Source: Bacteroidota bacterium (lineage in GTDB: Bacteria > Bacteroidota > Bacteroidia > Chitinophagales > Saprospiraceae). From it: 64,000 nucleotides of DNA. A program made the translations under genes and the position numbers. This document shows, piece by piece, positions 16,987 through 59,449 of the stretch. Numbering within the stretch: the first letter of the stretch is position 1; each line of letters begins with the position of its first letter. The stretch lies in assembly GCA_017857395.1 (NCBI GenBank), contig JAFMDF010000006.1, positions 1 to 64,000 of the forward strand, given 5' to 3'. Below the pieces are notes generated by a model. It was given only the letters and a program-made list of their open reading frames with translations, ran no database searches and was not told the origin of the DNA.

Positions 16987-17394
16987 AAAAGAAGGCTGCA
17001 CGGGACGTTGGCAGCAAGTAAAAAAACAAAAAGAAAAGAACCCGATGTCTGAAGAATACATCAGTCGTTTATTTTTCCTAGTGAACGATTTTAGCATAAT
17101 AGCTAACCAAAGCACAGTTTCCGATTTTTGAAGTTTTCAACTTCAAAACAATATCCATCATTTTTTCGAAATGTCTAGCTACCGTATTATTTTCGTAAAA
17201 TATAAAAAAGAAAATTATCCTTTCAAATAAGCAAATTGTAAAAAGGTTTTCAAATAATTTTGGCTGATAAAAAAGTAATGATAACTTACAATCAGCTGAA
17301 AAAATTACAACCCTCAAAAACAATAGAAAACAAATCAATTCACGTCAACTACTGATGAATTCAAAAGAATCTTTAACGTTAAAAATCAGGTAAC
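16987..17394. other. gene-free AT-rich stretch
   Basis: About 400 bp between the GIY-YIG gene and a small membrane-protein gene. Short open frames occur on both strands but none shows protein-like composition or a plausible start. I see no clear structure. Confidence 0.5.
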
Positions 17395-18519: not shown

Positions 18520-18634
18520 CGATATTTTAAGTCTCCAGACTTGAAATGGTTATCTCGTCGTCTCCAGACGACCGATGCAATTACGGTCGTCTGGAGACGA
18601 CGAGATAGTGTGTTCCAGTCTGGAGACTGAAACC
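18520..18634. repeat. GTCTCCAGAC palindromic element, copy 1
   Basis: This is a nested inverted repeat. Outer arms contain AAGTCTCCAGACTT (from 18529) and CAGTCTGGAGACTG. Inner arms of about 24 nt run from 18550 (starting TATCTCGTCGTCTCCAGACG) and from 18584 to 18607. Each arm is itself a short palindrome. It sits between convergent genes. Related copies lie at 39167-39302, 43303-43358 (half) and 59321-59449. Confidence 0.85.
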
Positions 18635-18641
18635 TTCGACA

Positions 18642-31864: not shown

Positions 31865-32974
31865 ATGAATTACCAATACTTAGAAAAAGAAAAGCGGCAA
31901 AAATGGTTTATTCGGTTTGCCGAAAAGGAATGTTTAAATGTCTCGCCCTTTTATTATGCACTATCCACCCAAATAGCAGCAGATGAAGAACTCCTAAATT
32001 TAGCTTCCTTTTGCCGACAAGGACAACCGATGCCCAATCTTTTTTTAGGCGCAGTTCATTTTTTGTTATTAAAAAATCCGAGTGCTGAATTAGCCAACTA
32101 TTATCCTTCTATAAATACTACTACGAAAAGCAAATTACCTTTTAAACGGTTCAAAGACTTCTGTATTTTCAATGCGGAATCCATTAAAAATATACTAACC
32201 ACTAAAATTGTTCAAACCAATGCCCTGAATCGGTCAGCTTATTTGATGCCCATTATTTTTTCTTTATTTGAAGATAAGACAACAATTAACTTAATTGATA
32301 TTGGCACAAGTGCAGGTTTGACTTTGAATTTTGATTTATATGAATATGATTATGGTACAAAAGGAAAATTTGGCAATAGCCCAGTTAAAATCAATAGTGA
32401 AATTAGGGTAGGGGAGTTGCCGAATTTTTCTACTATGAAAAGAGCTTCCAGAACTTCAAGTTCTGGAAGCTCTAAACACTTCAAAAGAAAGCGAATTACC
32501 ATTAAAAACAAAATTGGCATTGACCAAAATCCTTTGGATATAAAAGTGCCTGAAAATGCCCTATGGTTAAAAGCATTGATTTGGCCCGATAGGCAACAAC
32601 GGTTTCAGCGCATGGAACAAGCCATTGAATTAGCGCAAAATTCTACGGTTGAATTGATAAAAGCAGTTGAGATAAGCGATTTTAAACGAATCATTCAGAA
32701 CCAAGATCCAGCCATTCCATTGGTGATTTATCATACACATGTGTTGTATCAATTTACGCAAGCTGCTAAGACTGAATTTTGGGCGATGTTGGATGAAATT
32801 GGACAGGAGCGAGATTTTTATTACTTGGCTGCTGAAGCGGCTAGTGTTTTGAGGCATGATTATGGGCGGACGGGTGTTTTAGTGGTGTTGACGGCTTATA
32901 AAGATGGGGAGAAATCTAGTGAGTTGGTCGCTTTGACGAATGGGCATGCGGATTGGGTGGAGTGGGAAGTTTGA
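31865..32974 (+). CDS. DUF2332-family protein carrying an in-frame palindrome
   Basis: The 369-residue protein matches the DUF2332 pattern: FIRFAEKECLNVSPFYYALS, an IAADEELL segment, then GQPMPNLFLGAVHFLLLKNP and a Rossmann-like stretch INLIDIGTSAGLTLNFD near residue 141. The methyltransferase-like glycine loop (DIGTSAG) is notable, but the activity of the family is unknown. Residues 193-203 (RASRTSSSGSS) are encoded exactly by a 33-bp palindrome at 32441-32473. They interrupt an otherwise ordinary sequence, with a basic stretch KHFKRKR right after. The insertion keeps the frame, so the gene is probably still functional. Confidence 0.8.
   Translation: MNYQYLEKEKRQKWFIRFAEKECLNVSPFYYALSTQIAADEELLNLASFCRQGQPMPNLFLGAVHFLLLKNPSAELANYYPSINTTTKSKLPFKRFKDFCIFNAESIKNILTTKIVQTNALNRSAYLMPIIFSLFEDKTTINLIDIGTSAGLTLNFDLYEYDYGTKGKFGNSPVKINSEIRVGELPNFSTMKRASRTSSSGSSKHFKRKRITIKNKIGIDQNPLDIKVPENALWLKALIWPDRQQRFQRMEQAIELAQNSTVELIKAVEISDFKRIIQNQDPAIPLVIYHTHVLYQFTQAAKTEFWAMLDEIGQERDFYYLAAEAASVLRHDYGRTGVLVVLTAYKDGEKSSELVALTNGHADWVEWEV
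32441..32473. repeat. TTCCAGAACTT palindrome inside a coding region
   Basis: Perfect 16-bp arms (AGAGCTTCCAGAACTT and complement) around one base make 33 nt, or 11 codons, in frame within the DUF2332 gene. A close relative with 15-bp arms lies between genes at 50466-50498. Confidence 0.9.
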
Positions 32975-39166: not shown

Positions 39167-39302
39167 CGATATTTTAAGTCTCCAGACTTGAAATCACTAT
39201 CTTGTCGTCTCCAGACGACTGTAATAAAATTGCATTCCAATTTTCGGTCGTCAGGAGGAGACGACCAGATACCCCGTTGAGTCTGGAGACTTCAACAATC
39301 GG
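39167..39302. repeat. GTCTCCAGAC palindromic element, copy 2
   Basis: This copy has the same nested design as 18520-18634: outer AAGTCTCCAGACTTGAAAT (from 39175) with its partner ending near 39292, and inner CGTCGTCTCCAGACGAC-type arms. The right inner arm carries an extra AGG (TCGTCAGGAGGAGACGAC). Confidence 0.8.
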
Positions 39303-40927: not shown

Positions 40928-40948
40928 TCTTTGGATTTTTACAGTTGC

Positions 40949-41081
40949 GAGTTGCGGGTTACGGGTTGCGAGTTAGGAAACAATTGATGTTTAATATTTA
41001 GGGAAAATTCAATTTATAGTTTCTTTCCTAATATATAACCATCATTGCTTAACCCAACTCGCAACCCGTAACCCGCAACTC
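40949..41081. repeat. perfect 26-bp inverted repeat
   Basis: Arms at 40949-40974 (starting GAGTTGCGGGTTACGGG) and 41056-41081 are exact complements around 81 nt, in the gap between the barrel gene and the 28-heme cytochrome gene. Confidence 0.85.
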
Positions 41082-41087
41082 GAGAAT

Positions 41088-43397
41088 TTAATCACTTTCT
41101 CCTCTAGGATGACATTCATAACAAGCATTACTTTCATACTTGTAGCCATTTACATCATTGTGTTCGTCTCGTAAATCGTTCGGGTCATTATGTTCGTGAC
41201 ATTGGATACAACTAAAGGCTTTAAAGTCGCCCGGTGTCGTGTGGCATTCTATACATTGTTGCCATTCACCTCTGTGCGGGCCACTATAAATTGGGAAATA
41301 CATGGCATCGTGGTCAAAATTTGCAGGTTCCCAAGCTACTTCGCTGTGACATTCGGTACAATCAGTTGGGAAACCAGCACTTCGGTGATTCGGGTCTCTG
41401 GCATTGTCAAAATCATTTTGGTGACAACCAATACATTCTGTTGGGGTGTTCGTGAAAGTGGAATTATGACAAGCGGCACAATCATTTTTTATAGCTGCAT
41501 GCGCTCCATTTAATGGATAGAATTGGTCGTGAATATCAAAAGAGGCTGGCATCCAATTCGGGTCAGTTGTATGACAGGAAGTACAGTCATTGGATAAACC
41601 CAATTTTTGATGGTCTGGACTTTTAGCATTATCAAAATCCAATTGGTGACAAGCGGCACAATCAGTTGGCGTTCCTGCATATCCATCGGCATGACATTCG
41701 ATACAATCTACCCCAATATGTCCGCCTGTTAATGGGAAATTGGTATTATTATGGTCAAAAGTGGCGGGTATCCAAGCTGTTTCTGTGTGACAAACTATAC
41801 AGTCTGTGCCGAATCCTAATTCTTTATGATTTGGATTAGTTGTTTGGTCATAATCTTCTTGATGACAAGCGGCACAATCTGTTGGTGTACCTGCATAACC
41901 ATCCGCATGACAAGCAATACAATCTACGCCAATATGTCCTCCTCGAAGTGGGAAATCGGTTTGGTCGTGGTCGAATATCGCAGGTTCCCAAGCCTGTTCT
42001 GAGTGGCATACTTGACATTCCATCGAGAAGCCACCTGCAACGTGGTCAGGGTCTTTGGCACTATTAAAATCATCGGTATGACAAGCTACACAATCCGTTG
42101 GCGTACCAGTATAACCATTGGCATGGCATTCAATACAATCTACGCCAATATGTGCACCTCTTAATGGAAAACGAGTTCGATTATGGTCAAAATTATCATC
42201 TTCGCTACCCGTTGGATGACAGGCCAAACAAGCGGGCGAACTATAAACATAACCATTGACCTCATCGTGGTCATTATCCGTTTCATTTCTTTCGTGACAA
42301 GTCGTACAAGTGAATTCGGAAAAGTCATTTGGATTTAAGTGACAATCCACACAAGCATCCCATTCGCCATTATGCGACCCACTATAAATTGGGAATAAAT
42401 TATCATGTGCTAAATATTCTGCGGGCATCCAATCTACCTCTAACGTATGACAATCTACACAATTCGTAGAGAAATCAGAAGCGATGTGATTCGGACTTTG
42501 CGCAGTATTAAAATCTTCTTGGTGACAAGCCACACAATCCGTTGGGGTATTTTTAAAATCTCCATTGGTATGACAAGCATTGCAATCATTAATATCATGC
42601 CCTTGCACTAAGGGGAAAAAATCGTGATTGATAAATTCGGAAGACCAATCAAAGCCTTCGACTAAATGACAATCGGTACATTCCAGAGAAAAACCAGATG
42701 CTGGGTGATTCGGATCCGTTGTGGCATTAAAATCTTCCAAGTGACAATTGATACATTCATTCCCAATTCTAGGAAATTGCAATCCAGTTTCCGATTCGTG
42801 GCATTCTATACAATTAATTTGCGCATGCACGCCTAATAATGGAAAGCCATTTTCTTGGTGTAATTCGGTAATATTATCGACCAACCAACTTTCCTCCGTA
42901 TGACATCTCGCACAATCTGAACCTACCGTTGTTTGGTGTAAATCAACGTGACAAGAAATACAATCGGTACTCGCTTCCTCAAAAACTAAATTTTCATGGC
43001 ATTCCCGACAATCCACGCCTTGATGTTGACCATTTAGTGGAAATAATGTATTATAATGATTGAATTTTGCCGTATCTGTGCCTAATGGCCAGCCCGTTGC
43101 TTGAGATAATTCAATTTTGGGGGCATCCTCAAAATTCCAACTATCCATGGCAATTTCCCAACCGTCAGAGTTATGACAGGCTTTGCAATCTAGTTTTAGA
43201 TTCTCGCCGTGTGGGTTTTGGGCTTGTAGATTAATAGTAAACCCTATTAGAAAGATGGAGATATGCCAAATTTTTAAAATTTGGCATATCTTTTTAGGGA
43301 GTTCGGTCGTCTGGAGACGACGAGATAGGCATTTCAAGTCTGGAGACTTAAAATATCGAATTTCTTTATGCTTGTTTATACCTTTACTATTGCTCAT
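41088..43397 (-). CDS. 28-heme multiheme cytochrome c
   Basis: The 769-residue protein has 28 CxxCH motifs, the first at Cys71. From residue 403 three units of 72 residues repeat almost unchanged (starting at 403, 475 and 547), each with three hemes and the core HIGVDCIECHADGYAGTPTD; a fourth, looser unit starts at 620. The protein ends CYECHPRGESD. A hydrophobic stretch that could serve as signal peptide lies at about 46-57 (HISIFLIGFTIN), far from the only Met start. Residues 14-32 and 36-46 are encoded by two palindromic repeats, so the N-terminus seems rebuilt by repeat insertion. The protein should act as a periplasmic or surface electron wire. It lies 144 bp after a 23-heme paralogue on the same strand. 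Confidence 0.88.
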   Translation of the reverse strand: MSNSKGINKHKEIRYFKSPDLKCLSRRLQTTELPKKICQILKIWHISIFLIGFTINLQAQNPHGENLKLDCKACHNSDGWEIAMDSWNFEDAPKIELSQATGWPLGTDTAKFNHYNTLFPLNGQHQGVDCRECHENLVFEEASTDCISCHVDLHQTTVGSDCARCHTEESWLVDNITELHQENGFPLLGVHAQINCIECHESETGLQFPRIGNECINCHLEDFNATTDPNHPASGFSLECTDCHLVEGFDWSSEFINHDFFPLVQGHDINDCNACHTNGDFKNTPTDCVACHQEDFNTAQSPNHIASDFSTNCVDCHTLEVDWMPAEYLAHDNLFPIYSGSHNGEWDACVDCHLNPNDFSEFTCTTCHERNETDNDHDEVNGYVYSSPACLACHPTGSEDDNFDHNRTRFPLRGAHIGVDCIECHANGYTGTPTDCVACHTDDFNSAKDPDHVAGGFSMECQVCHSEQAWEPAIFDHDQTDFPLRGGHIGVDCIACHADGYAGTPTDCAACHQEDYDQTTNPNHKELGFGTDCIVCHTETAWIPATFDHNNTNFPLTGGHIGVDCIECHADGYAGTPTDCAACHQLDFDNAKSPDHQKLGLSNDCTSCHTTDPNWMPASFDIHDQFYPLNGAHAAIKNDCAACHNSTFTNTPTECIGCHQNDFDNARDPNHRSAGFPTDCTECHSEVAWEPANFDHDAMYFPIYSGPHRGEWQQCIECHTTPGDFKAFSCIQCHEHNDPNDLRDEHNDVNGYKYESNACYECHPRGESD
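43260..43290. repeat. ATATGCC palindrome inside a coding region
   Basis: Perfect 15-bp arms (GATATGCCAAATTTT and complement) around one base encode residues 36-46 of the 28-heme cytochrome. It is the same core as the arms of the element at 30116-30400. Confidence 0.85.
43303..43358. repeat. GTCTCCAGAC element, half copy, inside a coding region
   Basis: This is one arm only of the nested element (CGGTCGTCTGGAGACGACGA from 43304, then AAGTCTGGAGACTT from 43336). It lies within the 5' end of the 28-heme cytochrome frame and encodes about residues 14-32. Confidence 0.85.
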
Positions 43398-43541: not shown

Positions 43542-45374
43542 TTAATCCCCATGACAAACGATACATTCAAAACTTGGAAATTTGTATTGAGTAATGGTTT
43601 CTCCGTTAACGTCTATCGGTTTGTGGCAAGATTCACAAGCCACTTCAACATGTTTCCCTTCTAGTGGGAAAGCGGTATTATCGTGATTAAAATCGTCCAT
43701 GCCCCAGTTATTGACGCCGTGACAACGAGCGCAATCGGTAATGCCTGCGACTTCAAATTGAGTACCGTGGACATTTTCGTGACAACTCGCACATTCCATC
43801 GGAGTTTCTACAAAACCAGCCCATTGATTTTCTCCATTGGCGACATCTGCCGTATGACATTCCAAGCAAGCCACTTCGGCATGTGCGCCTTCTAGGGCAA
43901 ATTCAGTTAGGGTATGGTCGAACAAATTATCCGTCCAATTATCATTGGTATGACAAGTGGTGCATTCTTGATTAGGGTAAAATTCGGCGGCAATAAATCC
44001 TTCGTGTACATCTTCATGACAATCGACACAACGTTCCCCAATATTTCGGAATTCCCATTTGTCATCTGGTAAATGACAAGCAAAACAAGGCGTTGCAATA
44101 TGCGCACCTTCTAATGGGAACTTCGTTTCTTGGTGATTTTCTATCGTAAATAAAGACCCTTTAAAACCATCTACGGTATGACATTCCGCACAATCTGGCG
44201 TAAACCCTGTAGCCGCTACCATAAATTGTCCTTCGTGATAATCCTCATGACAATCTACACATTGACTATGCGCTAAAGGGTCGGTCAAATTAGTGGTATG
44301 GCATTCTTTACAATCTACTTCTCGGTGTATTCCTTCTAGTGGATAATCGGTTCTGTTGTGGTCAAAAACGTCCAAATCCACCGAGACCCAAGCCTGTTCA
44401 TTATGACATTCGATACAGTTTGTCCCAAATTTATTATCATGCACATCTTCGTGACATTCGACACAATCATTCGTTTGGATGCCCATTCTATCTTGGAACA
44501 TGTCTACTAAACTTTCATTTTGACTATGACATTCAAAGCAATCCGTTTGCTGATGCGCTCCTTTTAATGGAAAATTGGTGGTATTATGGTCAAACCGACG
44601 AATTCTCCGCAGAGAGGTAAAAGACTCTGTGGAGTGACATTGTTTGCAATTGGTGCCTAAGTTATTCTCATGCACATCATCGTGACAACTGATACAATTG
44701 TTAAATTCTAAGCCTGTGAAAACTTGGAATTCTTTGCCATTCCTCGTCTCTTTTTGGTGGCATTCAATACATTCTACGTCAACATGTTTACCTGTTAATG
44801 GATATTCTGTGTCATCATGGTCAAAAAAAGTAGCAGGTGCAAAAGCTTCTGTATCATGACAGGAAGCACAATCTTGTGTCGATAAAGTATTTTGGTGGAC
44901 ATCTTCGTGACAGGAAATACAATCGTGTTCCAAGCCTAAAAAAGTATCTTCCCGTTTCTTAATGTCCGCATCTGCAATAAATTCAGGAATATGACATTCT
45001 CGACAATCAATTTTAAGATGGCCTCCTGTTAATTCATAGCTCGTCAAATCATGGTCGAAATTATCTTCATCAAATCTGGACATATCAAATTTTCGACCGT
45101 GGTGTTCACTATGACAGGTGGCGCAATCTTTACCCTTCACTTCTTTCGAAGCGTGAAATCCTCTATTTTGGTCTGTTAAGTCTTGAATTTCTTCGTGACA
45201 AGCCAGACATTTGGTATTCGTTACTTTATTTCCTAAATCATGGCATTGGGTACAGTTTCTAATTCCTTCTAAATCGGCATGGGCGGTTGTTAAATCCCCT
45301 GGAGAGATTTGTCCGCTCGCATTTGTTAGGAACAAGATGCTTAATAGAATGATATTTAAAATGCCTTTTTTCAT
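43542..45374 (-). CDS. 23-heme multiheme cytochrome c
   Basis: The 610-residue protein has a clean Sec signal peptide (MKKGILNIILLSILFLTNAS) and 23 CxxCH motifs from Cys41 to the C-terminus. Repeated units carry FPLxGxH...C..CH and CHEDVH motifs, which supply distal His ligands for bis-His hemes. It is homologous to the 28-heme protein but more diverged between units. The family is probably periplasmic or surface-attached and conducts electrons between the inner membrane and outer partners. Upstream at 45444-45496 is a conserved leader motif shared with the b-type cytochrome gene, which suggests common regulation. Confidence 0.92.
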   Translation of the reverse strand: MKKGILNIILLSILFLTNASGQISPGDLTTAHADLEGIRNCTQCHDLGNKVTNTKCLACHEEIQDLTDQNRGFHASKEVKGKDCATCHSEHHGRKFDMSRFDEDNFDHDLTSYELTGGHLKIDCRECHIPEFIADADIKKREDTFLGLEHDCISCHEDVHQNTLSTQDCASCHDTEAFAPATFFDHDDTEYPLTGKHVDVECIECHQKETRNGKEFQVFTGLEFNNCISCHDDVHENNLGTNCKQCHSTESFTSLRRIRRFDHNTTNFPLKGAHQQTDCFECHSQNESLVDMFQDRMGIQTNDCVECHEDVHDNKFGTNCIECHNEQAWVSVDLDVFDHNRTDYPLEGIHREVDCKECHTTNLTDPLAHSQCVDCHEDYHEGQFMVAATGFTPDCAECHTVDGFKGSLFTIENHQETKFPLEGAHIATPCFACHLPDDKWEFRNIGERCVDCHEDVHEGFIAAEFYPNQECTTCHTNDNWTDNLFDHTLTEFALEGAHAEVACLECHTADVANGENQWAGFVETPMECASCHENVHGTQFEVAGITDCARCHGVNNWGMDDFNHDNTAFPLEGKHVEVACESCHKPIDVNGETITQYKFPSFECIVCHGD

Positions 45375-50465: not shown

Positions 50466-50498
50466 AGTGCTTCCAGAACTCTAAGTTCTGGAAGCACT
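50466..50498. repeat. TTCCAGAACTT palindrome, intergenic copy
   Basis: Perfect 15-bp arms (AGTGCTTCCAGAACT and complement) around CTA lie between convergent genes. This is the same family as the palindrome inside the DUF2332 gene (32441-32473). Confidence 0.85.
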
Positions 50499-59320: not shown

Positions 59321-59449
59321 TCGATGAATCAAGTCTCCAGATTTGATTCGACTATCTGGTCGTCTCCAGACGACCGTTATCCATACTATTTACGGTCGTC
59401 TGGAGACGACGAGATAGGGATTTCAAGTCTGGAGACTTGAAATATCGGT
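59321..59449. repeat. GTCTCCAGAC palindromic element, copy 4
   Basis: The full nested form has outer AAGTCTCCAGATTTGA (from 59331) with TCAAGTCTGGAGACTTGA near 59423-59440, and inner CTGGTCGTCTCCAGACGACC with its partner near 59394-59414. It lies between the ApbE and DUF4266 genes, inside the likely operon. Confidence 0.85.

Follow-up and report, generated by a model that had tools for sequence, protein, structure and literature searches.

We examined a 64,000-nucleotide stretch of a Saprospiraceae genome (contig JAFMDF010000006.1, positions 1-64,000, of assembly GCA_017857395.1), the whole of which is called the window below. On its reverse strand it carries an open reading frame for a cytochrome with 28 CxxCH motifs (43397-41088; 769 residues from an ATG at 43397), whose Pfam matches are to multiheme cytochrome families (Cytochrome_C7 and Cytochrom_c3_2), and, upstream on the same strand, a further multiheme cytochrome gene (43542-45374; 610 residues, 23 CxxCH motifs). 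The gap between both genes contains on the forward strand a match to the Rfam RNA family Acido-Lenti-1 (RF01687; 43436-43481), a copy present in the window only: the corresponding locus of a sister species of the same genus (G006) gave no Rfam match. Acido-Lenti-1 has 25 over-threshold matches in the genome under study, ten of which form five inverted pairs about 150 nucleotides apart. Among the copies seen, which include L163 592-637 and the one in the window, one lies 79 nucleotides from a Y1_Tnp match on C383, and none was found at the other 10 Y1_Tnp loci scanned; the family may be a DNA repeat linked to a transposase instead of a small RNA. The gap 3' of the 28-heme gene (40939-41091) holds a long inverted repeat (GAGTTGCGGGTTACGGGTTGCGAGTT), in place of which G006 has unrelated A/T-rich repetitive sequence.

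The front end of the 28-heme gene had been described in a first-pass annotation as built from repeats, and this is confirmed, with repeats making up most of the first 47 codons. Behind 13 pre-repeat codons (43359-43397; 37 of 39 nucleotides identical in G006) comes half of a dispersed element, 55 nucleotides long and read in frame as codons 14-32 (43304-43358; 83.2 bits with model R1; placed earlier at 43303-43358). A 12-nucleotide spacer separates it from a perfect palindrome of 33 nucleotides (43259-43291; earlier 43260-43290), which has two 16-nucleotide arms, 100% complementary, around a single centre base and is read in frame as codons 36-47. These positions agree with the earlier assignment of residues 14-46 to the repeats. 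As had also been noticed, the hydrophobic stretch appears only behind them: SIFLIGFTINLQA, residues 47-59 (43221-43259), all of these features being on the reverse strand. Judged by its sequence, SIFLIGFTINLQA followed by QNPHG resembles a Sec signal-peptide core with its cleavage site, the cut probably falling between ISIFLIGFTINLQA and QNPHG. The claim that 43397 offers the only Met start holds as well, the next in-frame ATG being codon 84, beyond the first heme motif at codon 71; the sole other ATG, GTG or TTG codon ahead of the signal peptide is a TTG at codon 21, inside the repeat.

The first of the two repeats belongs to an abundant family. Its motif GTCTCCAGAC, allowing at most one mismatch, occurs 15 times in the window against 1.1 occurrences expected, a number reached by none of 100 shuffles; 11 of these matches lie in three other elements, two in the cytochrome reading frame, and two are isolated one-mismatch occurrences (1472 and 38957). 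The three other elements are full copies, recognised with model R1 as inverted pairs in gaps between listed reading frames (18520-18638, 39167-39301 and 59322-59447). A full element is about 120 base pairs long and has the plan CGAT-hairpin-NNN-TATC-hairpin, a short loop, and then an inverted copy, so that each half consists of two TCCA-loop hairpins behind CGAT and TATC respectively. In an alignment of half copies (A2; 17 of 21 rows used, three out-of-register rows and L013, identical to the row from the window, having been dropped) the first hairpin covaries, with two-sided changes in 7 of its 10 pairs, which none of 500 shuffles reached. A covariance model recovered 103 matches at E<=0.01 in the same genome, where 150 of 3154 candidates were scored, and found matches in 6 of the 9 genomes of the genus that were compared.

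The arrangement of these copies was examined in 63 elements among the best matches listed, 43 from the genome under study and 20 from G006, excluding the G006 cytochrome copy and two weak R1 matches (L086 4-59, 26.7 bits, and window 17122-17168, 24.7 bits). Inverted pairs account for 47 of the 63 (26 in '+-' and 21 in '-+' order) and single halves for 16; the cytochrome copy is a single half. Eight of the 63 overlap a reading frame of at least 130 residues by at least 20 nucleotides, and four are read wholly through. On C151 (L066) a HupE/UreJ-like gene (PF13795) has a full element (2001-2124) in frame directly before a signal-peptide-like stretch, with no ATG between the two and one ATG inside the element; in the orthologue from G006, half an element is followed by 55 more codons before an ATG. 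An Ig_7-domain reading frame on C72 (L088) also reads through a full element, ahead of which stands a palindrome, GTGCTTCCAGAA...TTCTGGAAGCAC, like those at 32441-32473 and 50466-50498 of the window.

In two sister genomes this element is tied to a transposase gene. In G005 it stands on both sides of a 194-residue reading frame that matches the NCBIfam model for REP-associated tyrosine transposases (RAYTs; NF047646) with 86.6 bits at a cut-off of 80, and a G002 homologue of that protein, 78% identical, has element pairs on both flanks. The element is hence REP/REPIN-like and RAYT-linked in G005 and G002. In the genome that carries the cytochrome gene no RAYT flanked by the exact element was found among the three homologues examined: two longer ones on C496 (63% identical) have R1 scores of only 17-20 bits beside them, and near the third, which lies at the edge of C80, R1 gives no match. 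By eye, the C496 homologues adjoin different hairpins of the same plan, and RAYT homologues at L188, L189, L190 and L194 (G004, G008 and C496) are likewise flanked by a CGAT-hairpin-TATC-hairpin-like arrangement of different sequence, as if RAYT and flanking repeat had diverged together there. Alignment A2 has CGAT and TATCTC next to the stem and no GTAG tetranucleotide; therefore we file the element as REP-like and not as a GTAG REP.

The palindrome is a second dispersed family, distinct from the CGAT-TATC element. The first-pass annotation had both repeats recurring between genes; for the element this is borne out by the three gaps within the window, and for the palindrome it is true outside the window only, no second copy of it being found within. 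At up to three mismatches it occurs at 13 places in the genome, the cytochrome copy included, and at one place at least in 8 of the 9 genomes of the genus. The base at its centre varies freely, and many changes in the stem have a compensating partner. Only one of 36 fetched copies (12 from the same genome, 4 from G006 and 20 of 34 places in G001) overlaps a reading frame of at least 100 residues, and for 7 of the 16 copies from the first two genomes the reading frames found on either side are convergent. A terminator consensus matches the cytochrome palindrome once on the coding strand, where the T tract is interrupted; of the 36 copies fetched from elsewhere, most run on into CTA and lack such a tract, and a few run into CTTTT. 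The bare heptamer ATATGCC was dropped as evidence, as it occurs in the window at chance frequency, and an Rfam match of the palindrome to mir-5350 was taken as chance (18 bits against a gathering threshold of 90).

What the gene looked like without the repeats can be read from its relatives. A search of 199 genomes gave matches in 41, with loci listed for 30 (29 without the genome under study). In many relatives the start codon of a short signal peptide sits out of frame inside the codons for the last CxxCH motif of the upstream cytochrome, as where E-C-I-D-C-H is overlaid by M-Y-R-L-S-S. We surveyed this overlap at 41 loci, which came to 36 distinct relatives once four second copies (L206 of L014, L211 of L015, L210 of L056 and L222 of L054) and the same-genus orthologue L013 had been removed. 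The overlapping start, in frame with the downstream gene and with no stop between, is present in 21 of the 36 and is ATG in 17, GTG in three and TTG in one (L014, L015, L018, L019 and L054-L058; L201, L205, L207, L212, L214, L215, L217, L219, L223, L224, L227 and L229); named examples are Saprospiraceae metagenome-assembled genomes and one each from Lewinella and Draconibacterium. In the other 15 the upstream heme reading frame ends further upstream (3) or none was found by the script (12, including L017, with a gap of 234 nucleotides). Neither the element (E<=0.1; all 40 relative loci searched) nor the palindrome (up to three substitutions; 40 loci) was found among the relatives. Joined tblastn ranges begin at residue 7 in two of them and at residue 27 in one (L057, L060, L054), and the N-termini read at these three loci bear no resemblance to the repeats. 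L059 and L060, outside the overlap survey, had their N-termini read too; L060 is the same gene as L017, and the match at L059 is not N-terminal.

The window retains a trace of the ancestral start. Its upstream cytochrome gene closes with FECIVCHGD and a stop, and within the codons of that last CxxCH motif lies, on the reverse strand, an ATG that opens a dead frame of 11 codons, MYRLSWGLIET and a stop (43566-43531); in G006 the corresponding vestige reads MHSMSFVKINK and a stop. The inherited signal-peptide core resumes directly behind the palindrome. The overlap in the relatives together with the dead old start in the window indicates that the repeat-bearing DNA most likely entered just behind that start. 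This supports the earlier proposal of an in-frame insertion of repeats into the region of the signal peptide, many of the repeat-free orthologues having a short signal peptide whose start overlaps the upstream gene.

The gene is present in 2 of the 9 genomes of the genus, and the orthologue in the sister species, 96% identical over all 769 residues and with the full frame, has both repeats in the same frame. It is the only orthologue found that shares the N-terminal residues, and the observation that the first-pass annotation had named as a refutation, the same residues in orthologues without the palindromes, did not come to light. The half element is identical at 55 of 55 positions and the palindrome differs at its centre base only. 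Strong conservation between the two genomes starts at the ATG at 43397, the gap upstream being largely unlike, with patchy similarity. This bears on the notion that the N-terminus is the product of a sequencing or assembly error, such as the gain or loss of one base in the palindrome's A/T run that would hide a nearby ATGCC start. One base less in that run would indeed put the ATG of ATATGCC in the signal-peptide frame; however, G006, which was assembled separately, shows no difference in length there and has only the centre base changed, and 12 other places in the window's genome share the odd-length pattern. We therefore rejected a start hidden in this manner, unless the error is common to both assemblies, and give the error reading hardly any credence.

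Between these two genomes codons 1-47 differ by four nucleotides, all of them non-synonymous and none synonymous, whereas codons 48-770 show 135 synonymous and 30 non-synonymous changes (Fisher p = 0.0014). None of the 675 later windows of 47 codons has fewer than three synonymous changes. All four differences fall outside the three repeat hairpins; one of them is the centre base of the palindrome, and another, in codon 2, reaches the edge of a weak four-pair stem in the predicted fold. The low divergence alone is unexceptional, because 13 of 676 later 141-nucleotide windows have four differences or fewer; it is the ratio of zero to four that speaks against selection for the N-terminal residues. 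What is preserved is the nucleotide sequence of the block, and nothing points to selection on the encoded peptide. Nor did we accept its conservation as proof of a local function, as two of four orthologous intergenic element pairs are equally conserved (55/55 and 122/125 columns), so that the element itself may account for the conservation. The other two pairs are less conserved (97/110 positions before a contig end, and 130/148 columns with gaps); the pair on C151 and C221 sets a full element against a half element. Further downstream, codons 48-769 give a dS of 0.455 and a dN of 0.021. The loss of the ancestral start might suggest a dying pseudogene whose repeat-built front is debris, but this is very improbable given that low dN, the full frame in both species and the 28 CxxCH motifs of the window copy.

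The choice of start codon was approached through predicted RNA structure. A fold of 161 nucleotides has three hairpins within the repeats (z = -5.6), and the surroundings of the ATG at 43397 (15 nucleotides on either side) are the least structured of seven candidate starts, with a mean unpaired fraction of 0.53 and 0.54 against 0.22-0.42. In a longer fold, pairing predominates at the ATG codon (unpaired 13% in the genome under study and 39% in G006), and the ATC at codon 48, directly behind the palindrome, has an unpaired fraction of 84-89%; TTG-21 and the candidates inside the palindrome lie in predicted stems (0-2% unpaired). Translation most likely starts at 43397, an assignment that rests on two genomes, since one orthologue shares the block.

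The first-pass annotation had also allowed for a true start at a non-ATG codon inside the repeat. If starts just behind the repeats are included, this reading makes the repeats a 5' leader, with initiation at TTG-21 or at one of the ATA, ATT or ATC codons 37-48 and a signal peptide of normal length. It would account for the zero-to-four ratio of synonymous to non-synonymous changes, as expected of non-coding DNA, and for their position outside the hairpins; non-ATG starts do occur in the family at the ancestral place (GTG in 3 and TTG in 1 of the 36 relatives), and ATC-48 is itself accessible in the fold. Di Nocera et al. (PMC3733652) consider that many N-terminal REPs may be extragenic, with translation possibly starting behind them. 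Against this, only ATA, ATT and ATC codons are on offer behind the repeats, TTG-21 and the palindrome codons are buried in predicted stems, and the frame is open from 43397 over 47 codons in both genomes, with strong conservation beginning at that very ATG. ATA, ATT and ATC are very rare start codons. On balance we consider a non-ATG start possible but unlikely.

The same hairpins might instead, or in addition, serve as an mRNA attenuator or stability element for the second cytochrome gene after the ancestral overlap was lost, a suggestion compatible with any start codon, and so with translation from 43397 as well as with a non-ATG start. The folding z-score, the terminator-like form of the palindrome on the coding strand and the conservation, at nucleotide level, that extends over the block and the first codons of the signal peptide would fit such a structured leader; yet two of the four orthologous intergenic pairs are as conserved without a known role, and terminator-like consensus matches are not functional evidence. 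We regard this role as doubtful.

Taken together, we put at about two in three the probability that repeat insertion displaced an overlapping start and that the gene now starts at 43397 with a repeat-coded n-region. Against it stand the 15 of 36 relatives in which the overlap was not seen, the tblastn ranges that begin at residues 7 and 27, the zero-to-four ratio in codons 1-47, the pairing of the ATG codon next to an open ATC-48, and the failure to find a RAYT flanked by the exact element in the same genome. Ancestrally, the second cytochrome gene would have started inside the first, its start codon and n-region codons (e.g. MYRLS) being an out-of-frame reading of the codons for the first protein's last CxxCH motif. 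Within the lineage of this genus, DNA with half a REP-like element and the second palindrome would then have entered directly behind the MYRLS codons, splitting them from the signal-peptide core; this is the simplest reading, and the exact point of entry is approximate. Presumably a transposase moved the element. Since its bases are required by the heme motif, the old ATG would have stayed, in a frame now closed after 11 codons; and since an open frame runs through the repeats into the inherited core, the gene would have survived. Translation from the ATG at 43397 would yield a long n-region of about 46 residues encoded by the repeats, which would be removed with the signal peptide by cleavage after LQA, so that the mature cytochrome would be unchanged. 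A bolder version, in which a RAYT-mobilised element split overlapping cytochrome genes into a separately started pair and the block has been kept as a start region and structured, expression-setting leader, strikes us as improbable.

At this locus one can follow cleanly, before and after, how a palindromic repeat of mobile appearance rewrote the start of a working gene: the ancestral state, its remnant, the new repeat-coded front and the event shared with the sister species are all legible, and in sister genomes the repeat family is linked to a transposase gene. The case also calls for caution, since where repeats encode an N-terminus it may be the DNA and not the protein that is conserved. 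A literature search of titles and the beginnings of abstracts found no report of this element in the Saprospiraceae and none of REPs fused to signal peptides.

Among known systems, the element resembles REPs and REPINs in its short hairpins, high copy number, mostly inverted pairs, mainly extragenic location and position beside RAYT genes in sister genomes; it differs in lacking the GTAG tag, in having two hairpins per half, and in that no RAYT with the exact repeat was found in its own genome. The CGTC-tagged REPs have CGTC at one end, a stem of 8-9 base pairs starting with A-T pairs, and no link to a transposase (PMC3733652). We rejected membership in that class: in alignment A2 CGTC occurs only within the second stem, the stems differ by eye, and a RAYT is linked. 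With autotransporters bearing an ESPR, a long bacterial signal peptide with an extended n-region, the cytochrome would share an extended, charged n-region in front of an otherwise normal hydrophobic core, although here that region is derived from repeats and found in two species only. As a multiheme c-type cytochrome (Cytochrome_C7, Cytochrom_c3_2) the gene is an ordinary member, unusual only in its first 46 or so codons. A further parallel is with intragenic palindromic repeats, reported within reading frames for both REPs and the Rickettsia palindromic elements (RPE), N-termini included; according to the same source, Rickettsia conorii proteins with an N-terminal RPE-1 are expressed, and translation may start downstream of many N-terminal REPs (PMC3733652). 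As in those, a palindromic repeat is read in frame within a reading frame, N-terminus included. The phylum is unrelated, two repeat families stand in series, and the displaced start is still visible. Since intragenic and N-terminal REPs have been described, the front of this cytochrome gene is not a new kind of structure and is a well-documented new case of a known one.
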